From Pontiella desulfatans (GTDB lineage Bacteria > Verrucomicrobiota > Kiritimatiellia > Kiritimatiellales > Pontiellaceae), in assembly GCF_900890425.1 (NCBI RefSeq), contig NZ_CAAHFG010000002.1, forward strand, positions 434,001-498,000: 64,000 nucleotides of DNA, given 5' to 3'. Positions within the stretch are counted from its first letter, which is position 1. Every line of letters starts with the position of its first letter. Of this stretch, positions 58,607-64,000 are shown piece after piece. The translations under genes and the position numbers were made by a program. Under the pieces are notes generated by a model, which was given only the letters and a program-made list of their open reading frames with translations, had not been told where the DNA came from and ran no database searches.

Positions 58607-58626
58607 CTAGCTAGCCGAACGGTTAG
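58607..58626 (-). promoter_or_regulatory. Motif CTARCC-N4-GGCTAGCTAG, copy upstream of the minus-strand glucan operon
   Basis: Read toward the GH13 gene the site is CTAACC-gttc-GGCTAGCTAG. It matches the copy at 59688-59707 in 15 of 20 positions (all of GGCTAGCTAG plus five of six in the left part). Distance to the GH13 ATG is 88 bases. A regulator-binding site is the likely reading; the protein that binds it is not identified. Confidence 0.65.
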
Positions 58627-58636
58627 AAGATGGATC

Positions 58637-58680
58637 AGGGTGACATCCAAATTGACGATCGTGCAAATGGATGTCACCCT
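58637..58680. repeat. 44-bp palindrome at the 5' end of the PaaX-like gene
   Basis: Perfect 13-bp outer arms AGGGTGACATCCA (58637-58649) and complement (58668-58680), centred on CGATCG. Its right half is identical over 24 bases to that of the palindrome at 59494-59535. It overlaps the region where the regulator's promoter or first codons would lie. Confidence 0.88.
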
Positions 58681-58686
58681 CTTGAC

Positions 58687-59499
58687 ATGTGGTGCGCATT
58701 TCACCATCCCGATATTTCGTTGCCCCTGGTGCGTCGGCGCATCGGGCAGGAGCTGCTGGAAACCCTGGAGTTTCTTGGCGATATGTCGCTACACCATATG
58801 CATGCGGTCATGCGGAACGAAACCGCGCCGGACAACAAGGCGCGCAACCGTGCGATCAACCGGCTTGCCAAGCAGGGGTTGACGGTTGTTCGGCAAGGTC
58901 TGGATACGCCGTTGTTGGCAATTTCGGAGGTGGGGGAGGAATCGCTGCCGGACTATGCACGGCCGGAACGATGGTGGAACCGGAAGTGGAACGGCATTTG
59001 GTATCTCCTGGTTTTCGACGTTCCGGAAATCGACCGAGCCTACCGCAACACGCTGCGTGCCTTTCTTAAAAGGATGCGGCTCGGTTGCTTCCAGAAGAGC
59101 GTATGGATCACGCCGCACGACATCCGGCCGGAGTATGCCGATTTGGAGGAAGCCGCCGCAGTTGATGCATTCGCCTGCCTGTTCGAGGCGAAAACCGTTT
59201 TGGGGATGCCTTCGGCAAAGGTGGTTTGGGAATCGTGGGACATGGATCGGCTATACGATATCCAAAGCCGCTATTGCGGGTTTTGCACCGAAAACCTGGA
59301 TGTTCTGCGTGGTGGGGTGTCGTTCGGGCAGGAGGAGCTGCTGGGGCTGGTGTCGGTCGAGCTCGAGGCTTTCCGTAGTGCTTTCCTGTTCGATCCCCTG
59401 TTGCCGGGGGATTTGCTTCCCCGCGACTACAAGGGGCGCGAAGCCTATTCCCTGCATCGGAAGCTCGCGGAGGAAATTCGCACAAGGCTATCGGGGTGA
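58687..59499 (+). CDS. PaaX-like transcriptional regulator (Cas2-like middle domain)
   Basis: About 270 residues from the ATG at 58687. The N-terminal part is a winged helix (RIGQELLETLEFLGDMSLHH, then ARNRAINRLAKQGLTVVRQG). The middle domain (about 100-170; WNRKWNGIWYLLVFDVPE and LRAFLKRMRLGCFQKSVWITPHD) fits PaaX_M, which has a Cas2-like ferredoxin fold. The C-terminal region is helical, as in PaaX_C. It should be a repressor responding to a small ligand, perhaps one from alpha-glucan breakdown given the neighbours. The start is uncertain: an in-frame ATG at 58630 would translate the palindrome, and no Shine-Dalgarno is clear. The stop codon lies in the second palindrome. Confidence 0.8.
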   Translation: MWCAFHHPDISLPLVRRRIGQELLETLEFLGDMSLHHMHAVMRNETAPDNKARNRAINRLAKQGLTVVRQGLDTPLLAISEVGEESLPDYARPERWWNRKWNGIWYLLVFDVPEIDRAYRNTLRAFLKRMRLGCFQKSVWITPHDIRPEYADLEEAAAVDAFACLFEAKTVLGMPSAKVVWESWDMDRLYDIQSRYCGFCTENLDVLRGGVSFGQEELLGLVSVELEAFRSAFLFDPLLPGDLLPRDYKGREAYSLHRKLAEEIRTRLSG

Positions 59500-59535
59500 C
59501 ATCCATTTGCGCGATCGTGCAAATGGATGTCACCC
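59494..59535. repeat. 42-bp palindrome at the 3' end of the PaaX-like gene
   Basis: Perfect 17-bp arms GGGTGACATCCATTTGC (59494-59510) and complement (59519-59535), with a GCGATCGT centre that is itself palindromic but for the outer pair. The regulator's TGA stop is inside the left arm. It would form a very stable hairpin in RNA, but no T-run follows. Confidence 0.9.
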
Positions 59536-59687
59536 GGGGCGGGGGAGATGCCATCCCTGTGGCTGGCTGGACTGCATTCAAAACACCGGGCCAACTCGTT
59601 TGCGAGGTGTGGGGATGTTGAATGGAATGGTTCGGATGGCGGGGCGGTGCCCGAGTCGGCGCTTTGGCTGGGGGTTGTTTCCAAAAA

Positions 59688-59707
59688 CTAGCCCCCTGGC
59701 TAGCTAG
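59688..59707 (+). promoter_or_regulatory. Motif CTARCC-N4-GGCTAGCTAG, copy upstream of the plus-strand glucan genes
   Basis: CTAGCC-ccct-GGCTAGCTAG, inside a wider dyad AAACT...AGTTT (59685-59714). It lies 98 bases before the ATG of the secreted calcium-loop protein gene, in the same relative orientation as its partner at 58607-58626. The surrounding gap (59536-59804) holds no gene. Confidence 0.65.
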
Positions 59708-63030: not shown

Positions 63031-64000
63031 CCTGTAAATATTGGGTGTATGCGTCTTTTCGATCACCTCATTGACAACGGCTATGCCGTTTGAGTGCGAG
63101 CGGTGGACCAGCGGGCAGGTGTCCAGTTCGCAGCTTCGGACTGTTGCATGGTCGGCAGGGCGTCGAGTAGGTCTTTGAGATACTCGGCGGGGTTAAGGCC
63201 GAGTTTACGGCAGGTTTCCACCAGGCTGTAGATGACGGCACTGGTCTGCCCGGAGTTCGGGCTGCCGAAGAACAGGAAGTTCTTTTTGCCCAGCGCGGTC
63301 GGACGAATGGCGTTCTCGACCAGGTTGTTGTCGATTTCGAATGTTCCGTGTTCGAGGTAAAGATTAAGCGCTTCCCAGCGATCAAGCGCATAGGTTATGG
63401 CTTTTCCAAAGTTGCTCTTTGGCAACTGGCGCGCCTGTTCTTTATCGAGGATCGTTTTAATTTTATCCAGAACCGGAGCCGCATGTTTCCGGCGGTAGGC
63501 CGCGCGTTCAAGTTCAGGATTGTTTCGAAGTTCTGTTTCAGTGCGGTAGAGTTTGGCGATCAGCTTTACGACTTTCCGGGCGTTCGAGTTGTCAGGCACT
63601 TCCACGAAGTTCCGACGGGTATGCGCCCAGCAGGCGGCGTGAATGATGGTCTCTTTTTCTTTTTGATGTTCCGGACGGTTCAGCCACGCCGGATAGGCGG
63701 CATACCCATCGGTCTGAATATATCCTTCATAATCGGTGAGCATCGGATCCAGGCATTCGGCGGCCCGGCTCGGGAACCATTCAAACAGCACGCCGGCCCC
63801 GGGACTGTGATAGGCCCATAGGTATCCATTGGGACAATGGTCCTTTTCCGTGTCCTGGTATTTTATGAATGTTTCATCGATCTGCATGTATCCGCTTTGC
63901 CGGATTTCATTGCGGAGCGCTTCATAAATCAGAGTCAGCCAATCGGCGACCAGATACATCCAGTTGCCCATGGTTTTGCGGCTGATTTCAATATCGTGGC
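63031..64000 (-). mobile_element. IS66-family element, partial (continues past the window)
   Basis: Contains the C-terminal part of an IS66 transposase on the minus strand. The left end is set near TGTAAATATTGGGTGTATG (about 63031), which looks like a terminal inverted repeat, but the other end is outside the window and cannot confirm it. It begins about 40 bases from the tRNA remnant. Confidence 0.6.
63081..64000 (-). CDS. tnpC: IS66-family transposase, C-terminal part (cut by window edge)
   Basis: The last 306 residues of an IS66 transposase; the frame is open through base 64000 toward the N terminus (EISRKTMGNWMYLVADWL). The catalytic core shows YMQIDETFIKYQD (first D), YEGYIQTDGYAAYPAW (second D) and the terminal FEIDNNLVENAIRPTALGKKNFLFFGS with the Glu. 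A Cys-His pair HAACWAHTRRNF is typical of the family. No internal stop is present. TnpA and TnpB, if any, would lie to the right. Confidence 0.92.
   Translation of the reverse strand, partial: HDIEISRKTMGNWMYLVADWLTLIYEALRNEIRQSGYMQIDETFIKYQDTEKDHCPNGYLWAYHSPGAGVLFEWFPSRAAECLDPMLTDYEGYIQTDGYAAYPAWLNRPEHQKEKETIIHAACWAHTRRNFVEVPDNSNARKVVKLIAKLYRTETELRNNPELERAAYRRKHAAPVLDKIKTILDKEQARQLPKSNFGKAITYALDRWEALNLYLEHGTFEIDNNLVENAIRPTALGKKNFLFFGSPNSGQTSAVIYSLVETCRKLGLNPAEYLKDLLDALPTMQQSEAANWTPARWSTARTQTA

Follow-up and report, generated by a model that had tools for sequence, protein, structure and literature searches.

A PaaX-like gene family with a Cas2-like domain is flanked by, and probably disperses, its own palindromes

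The PaaX-like gene, its two palindromes and their surroundings

The window, that is, the entire stretch of 64,000 nucleotides of Pontiella desulfatans DNA that was analysed, carries between a left and a right set of glucan genes a PaaX-like gene on the forward strand (58687-59499; stop codon TGA at 59497-59499), which encodes a protein of 270 residues comprising an N-terminal winged-helix part, a central Cas2-like domain with a conserved aspartate (Asp111) and a PaaX C-terminal domain. A preliminary description made from the sequence had reported an order of palindrome, gene and palindrome with repeats and outer motifs, and both this order and the places of its elements were confirmed. The 5' palindrome (58637-58680, forward strand; core CGATCG) has complementary bases in 18 of its 22 pairs and ends 6 bp from the ATG, and the 3' palindrome (59494-59535, forward strand), with 20 complementary pairs of 21, contains the stop codon TGA as had been claimed. 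The right halves were said to be shared exactly, and the last 24 bases, CGATCGTGCAAATGGATGTCACCC, are indeed identical in the two palindromes. Gene and palindromes jointly form a cassette of 899 bp (58637-59535). The description also placed the first palindrome at the 5' end of the gene: it does adjoin the start, but the earlier start codon at 58630 was wrong, the motif M-W-x-x-F-H-H-P-D of the homologs identifying ATG 58687 as the conserved one, so that the palindrome lies just upstream of the gene and not inside it. At the window edge, an IS66 family transposase is encoded on the reverse strand (63081-63998).

The 20-bp motif CTAGCTAGCCGAACGGTTAG, which belongs to the left glucan gene, is located at 58607-58626 (forward strand) and, as described, recurs exactly outside the palindromes in inverted orientation, upstream of the right operon (59688-59707, reverse strand); two exact copies were found where 0.02 are expected. 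The 58607 motif has a degenerate partner in inverted orientation, CCATCCCTGTGGCTGGCTGG, just past the 3' palindrome (59551-59570, reverse strand). The view that motifs, palindromes and regulator form one nested cassette had to be abandoned, as the outer motifs are older than the cassette and lie outside of it. In one related genome (G016), which shares the left and the right glucan genes, the two motifs lie 179 bp from each other without PaaX gene or palindrome, and in another (G037) the 58607 motif is kept in a motif pair 30 nt apart with no cassette between. Removal of the cassette from the window leaves the 58607 motif and its degenerate partner 25 nt apart, and thus restores the spacing of an older motif pair which the cassette split. 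Since two relatives lack it, the cassette was likely inserted in this lineage, though it may instead have been lost elsewhere; comparison with G037 reveals no target-site duplication at its ends. Independently of the cassette, CTAGCTAGCCNNNNGGNTAG occurs in inverted pairs upstream of glucan genes and is conserved in three genomes (window 58607-58626 and 59688-59707; L277, L278), where such pairs probably represent a regulator site or an RNA element.

The assignment of a PaaX-like gene with a Cas2-like middle domain is corroborated by Pfam: the protein matches PaaX_M ('central Cas2-like domain', PF20803; 78.4 bits, E 4.5e-22) and PaaX_C (PF08223; 31.1 bits, E 3.2e-7), both above the gathering score. 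Its AlphaFold2 model is confident (pLDDT 86.7, pTM 0.82), and the best solved Foldseek matches are E. coli PaaX (8a39, E 3e-11) and Rv0674. The overall fold and a C-terminal DPLLP motif are shared with the E. coli PaaX repressor, from which the protein is distinguished by (i) a different N-terminus, (ii) the retention of Asp111, (iii) the flanking palindrome pair of its gene, and (iv) a score far below the cut-off of the PaaX equivalog TIGR02277 (48.2 versus 264.6 bits). The threshold of the Cas2 family is likewise not reached (16.8 versus 23.8 bits), and the weak match spans the first strand and helix and comprises the Asp position. Unlike Cas2, the domain is fused to a winged-helix part and PaaX_C, and within the window neither a CRISPR nor cas1 is found beside the gene. 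Asp111, which occupies the Cas2 position within a F/Y-D-V/I-P-E motif, is present without exception in 33 homologs, but the aligned structures of the PaaX repressor (8a39) and Rv0674 lack it. The corresponding aspartate is catalytic in Cas2 nucleases, and its presence at this position makes a metal-dependent nuclease activity via Asp111 a lead, based on analogy, for the function of the protein.

The home genome (8.66 Mb in 6 contigs) encodes nine PaaX-like proteins. A tenth PaaX_M match is the true cas2, separate from these genes, which lies with what is apparently cas1 next to a CRISPR array with the repeat GTTGCTTCTGATTTCAAAGAACTGTCAATCCACAAC (L249 ~690-1165 and 1330-2540; G000:C1:3923k).

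Palindrome pairs at homologous genes

The preliminary description proposed to search related genomes for the palindrome beside PaaX-like genes, and a bordering pair was encountered at nearly every homolog tested, in Kiritimatiellota, Lentisphaerota, other Verrucomicrobiota and one Patescibacteria genome. Homologs in related genomes, mostly 40-64% identical, are bracketed on both sides, with the centre of the palindrome located upstream of the ATG, at a distance of ~24-29 or ~49-56 bp, and ~3-30 bp past the stop codon. Palindromes with a score of at least 10 are present at 27 of 29 homolog starts and 25 of 29 ends, compared with 21 of 1118 control windows, which excludes chance. Both ends are occupied in 41 of 56 loci, and several of the remaining loci end at a contig edge. 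Distant loci in Akkermansiaceae (L289) and Pedosphaera (L151, core GCATATGC) exhibit the same layout with other cores, and in the Patescibacteria genome palindromes were detected at both ends of two loci (L287, L295), at one end of two others (L281, L296) and at neither end of a fifth (L293). The E. coli paaX gene, coding for a true repressor, has no such pair. One paralog of the home genome (L243; G000:C1:4199k) has an in-frame TAG stop within the homologous stretch and has kept its palindrome pair.

Across 58 genomes, palindromes occur in all 19 that carry a PaaX-like gene and are absent from 33 of the 39 that do not (Fisher p 1.9e-10; the palindrome tally consists of approximate counts). 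The six exceptions (G012, G026, G031, G034, G037 and G053, with 1 to 14 strand matches) may hold relics, or the gene may have diverged there beyond detection. Carriage of the PaaX-like genes by phages or plasmids was rejected, the viral contigs yielding a single weak, partial match (29% identity over 91 residues) and the plasmid collection likewise one weak, partial match.

Over 55 palindromes the centre is conserved as ACGATCGT or ACGGCCGT, and the arms vary. They do so in a compensatory manner: 86.8% of the cells are paired, 333 cells exhibit a double change compared with 111 in shuffles, and sliding the pairing destroys the signal. The arms of the 5' and the 3' palindrome of one element resemble each other (identity 0.77) far more than arms of different elements (0.37), and the distance between palindrome arms correlates with the distance between the proteins (Mantel r 0.46, p 0.0005). 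Hence, arms are alike at both ends of a gene, unlike between genes, and track the protein. The consensus of the 55 palindromes contains no GTAG tag. A role of flanking inverted repeats as insertion targets was considered and rejected, as pairing outside the core has dropped to the background level at ~25 bases from the centre.

Several of the loci are shared by different species, among them the trpB locus in seven genomes and a methionine-metabolism (met) locus in three, which indicates that the PaaX-like gene is mostly inherited in place. At these loci the arms have diverged, yet both ends of each gene changed together: arm identity amounts to 0.83 within an element versus 0.50 between orthologs at the trpB locus (6 species), and to 0.86 versus 0.47 at the met locus (3 species). 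Chance alone should not make two separated repeats of 40 bp drift in parallel; recognition by the protein, combined with copying between the two ends, would be the simplest reading of this concerted change.

Dispersed palindromes in the home genome

The palindrome of the window, GGTGACATCCA-N18-TGGATGTCACC, has ten full and two partial copies in the home genome, eight of the full ones lying away from the gene, and was found in none of 57 relatives. The preliminary description had named as evidence against its reading that the palindrome should occur at many unrelated loci without link to PaaX-like genes; copies at unrelated loci there are, but the linkage with the gene across genomes is tight, as stated above. 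Three unlinked copies (L008, L012, L013; hereafter, palindromes away from a gene are called solos) equal the 5' palindrome of the window over the 38 compared bases, an asymmetric mismatch included, and a fourth (L011) is identical to the 3' palindrome. A covariance model located ~64 palindrome sites in the home genome, of which 53 lie at a distance of over 1.5 kb from every PaaX-like gene, and most solos can be assigned by a wide margin to one paralog; four, for example, equal the 5' palindrome of the paralog C2:349k. A solo family of the type TTAAATCCAGATTGACGATCG..., which includes closely related forms (L198, L199, L200, L202, L204, L206, L208, L217, L234), has no matching paralog in the home genome, and palindromes like these are found on the flanks of PaaX-like genes in G001 and P. 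sulfatireligans (G021). One copy of the window palindrome is part of the reading frame of a GH2 glycosidase gene, in which it encodes EVTSKCAIVQMDVTLEN (L015 ~1501-1540; G000:C4:1145431).

Solos are mostly intergenic and have no promoter bias, with 14 in convergent, 24 in tandem and 10 in divergent gaps and 7 inside predicted ORFs, some of which are weak calls; these counts are approximate because the genes were called by a simple codon-usage script. Orthologous junctions in P. sulfatireligans or G001 lack the solo palindrome in 13 of 13 cases. This includes thiG-thiH in G001, where no palindrome is found although that genome has the ortholog of the cognate paralog (L110). Some of these empty sites could be losses. 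Lone palindromes and empty sites, for which the preliminary description had suggested to look, thus both exist.

These observations bear directly on the reading in which the proteins act as ordinary transcription factors of the PaaX type: the palindromes at the gene ends would be autoregulatory operators, and the dispersed ones would be operators in the regulon of each paralog, coevolving with its DNA-binding domain. The closest solved structure is that of the PaaX repressor, the position of the 5' palindrome, at the start codon, would suit an autorepressor, and coevolution of arms and protein is expected for operators as well. However, nearly every gene has a palindrome at its stop codon too, solos do not prefer promoters, sister species are devoid of any palindrome at the orthologous places, and the identical asymmetric solo copies point to copying and not to selection for binding. 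We consider this reading unlikely, albeit the strongest competitor, and solo positions and empty sites led us to reject operators as the sole explanation. The proposal of operators looping across the gene fares alike: taken alone, it leaves the dispersed, promoter-unbiased copies missing from orthologous sites unexplained, and what may persist of it is autoregulation through the 5' palindrome.

Another reading is that of a conventional insertion element, in which the entire palindrome-gene-palindrome unit jumps and solos are scars of recombination between its ends, comparable to solo LTRs. The empty sites of the window cassette in G016 and G037, a feature of insertion sequences, are in line with this, as are the solos of type A in the window family, which correspond to a hybrid of 5' left and 3' right halves because the right halves are identical, and one true hybrid (L238) in the C2:349k family. 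Most solos of the C2:349k paralog are, however, of pure 5' type, each paralog exists in a single copy with only ~40-53% identity to the window protein and is hence not a recent duplicate, and the gene is mostly inherited in place at loci conserved across species. Neither recent identical full copies nor, in the comparison of the window ends with G037, a target-site duplication was found. Recombination scars explain some solos only, and we judge the insertion-element account as a whole to be improbable.

It is finally very hard to believe that a RAYT or another Y1 (HUH) transposase encoded elsewhere in the genome moves these palindromes as it would ordinary REPs, with the PaaX genes as passive neighbours. 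The home genome does contain 19 Y1_Tnp matches, but all palindrome sites are at least 6.6 kb away from the nearest Y1 gene, for which reason RAYT mobilisation was rejected, and the palindrome families follow, and correlate with, the PaaX genes.

A self-flanked gene family as the favoured reading

We regard it as probable that the cassette is a member of a family of self-flanked chromosomal genes, whose PaaX/Cas2-fold protein specifically recognises its own palindrome, copies of which are held at both ends of the gene and dispersed in the genome, in a manner resembling REP/RAYT systems and with an unrelated protein. The preliminary alternative of a repeat-mobilised unit gains support from the empty sites of the cassette in two relatives and from the dispersed, lineage-specific solos, and we infer that the palindromes are mobilised by the PaaX-like protein. 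The protein would then bind its palindrome with the winged helix on the variable arms and the symmetrical Cas2-like part over the conserved core of 6-8 bp, and would cut, as a metal-dependent nuclease via Asp111, at the core or at a hairpin or cruciform. Repair or replication of the cut ends would copy palindromes into new sites and would, by the same process, homogenise the two flanking copies, and the dispersed palindromes would represent small non-autonomous units. Several findings count against this reading: the nearest structurally solved relative with a known function acts as a repressor, the gene has often been passed on at its locus without jumping, palindromes exist in genomes where the gene was not detected, and one solo family lacks a paralog. 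Neither a target-site duplication nor any hallmark of a known reaction was found.

In REP/RAYT systems, a chromosomal gene has copies of a short palindrome on either side, further copies are scattered through intergenic regions, often 3'-proximal, and a genome may hold several gene-specific repeat families with occasional intragenic copies (PMC2817692, PMC3116915, PMC3733652). The PaaX-like genes share with these REP/REPIN-RAYT units (REPtrons) the flanking palindrome that is dispersed in the genome in positions of this kind, the several gene-specific families with occasional intragenic copies, and the pattern of in-place inheritance, coevolution and cognate dispersed repeats. In contrast, the protein has a PaaX/Cas2 fold and is not a HUH tyrosine transposase (Y1, PF01797) as in RAYT, and the palindromes, unlike REPs, are ~40 bp long with a conserved centre, freely varying arms and no GTAG tag. 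Lacking HUH transposase and tag, the system would thus work like a REPtron without being one. CGTC-tagged REPs, short dispersed palindromic repeats apparently without dedicated transposase, bear an unpaired CGTC tag on one of their ends (PMC3733652). By this description they resemble the palindromes reported here, in which, however, CGTC-like letters form part of the paired centre and which are accompanied by a dedicated gene family.

Bacterial genomes commonly contain short dispersed palindromes, and a likely mobiliser is known only for those tied to HUH RAYT transposases; those outside such systems have been called orphans (PMC3733652). A widely distributed family, named PaaX regulators by Pfam and NCBI, carries, coevolves with and probably disperses its own palindromes, which suggests that many 'PaaX family regulators' are mis-described and provides a Cas2-fold protein with a candidate DNA target. 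A search of the literature on PaaX in connection with palindromes, Cas2, mobile elements or Patescibacteria retrieved no description of such a system. The nine proteins of the home genome offer natural cognate and non-cognate protein-palindrome pairs.

More tentatively, as a possibility that we would not yet back against its opposite, PaaX/Cas2-fold proteins might be palindrome-specific nucleases or recombination factors of an undescribed class of mobile repeats, reaching from Patescibacteria to Verrucomicrobiota, which disperse palindromes and build palindrome-bounded cassettes, including those with TOTE and SNF2 conflict-type helicases; if true, the Cas2 fold would be tied to mobile DNA without Cas1. 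In the clade nearest to the window gene, palindromes separate genes for the PaaX-like protein, an AEP-TOTE primase-helicase, an SNF2 helicase and an unknown protein of ~415-433 residues. Such palindrome-bounded blocks, with the primase-helicase, the SNF2 helicase or others, may also move or recombine, as is suggested by a comparison of G001, G009 and G021 (L299, L300, L301): block order and content differ among these genomes in the fashion of a cassette array, in part at a shared HEAT-repeat locus and in part at other places.
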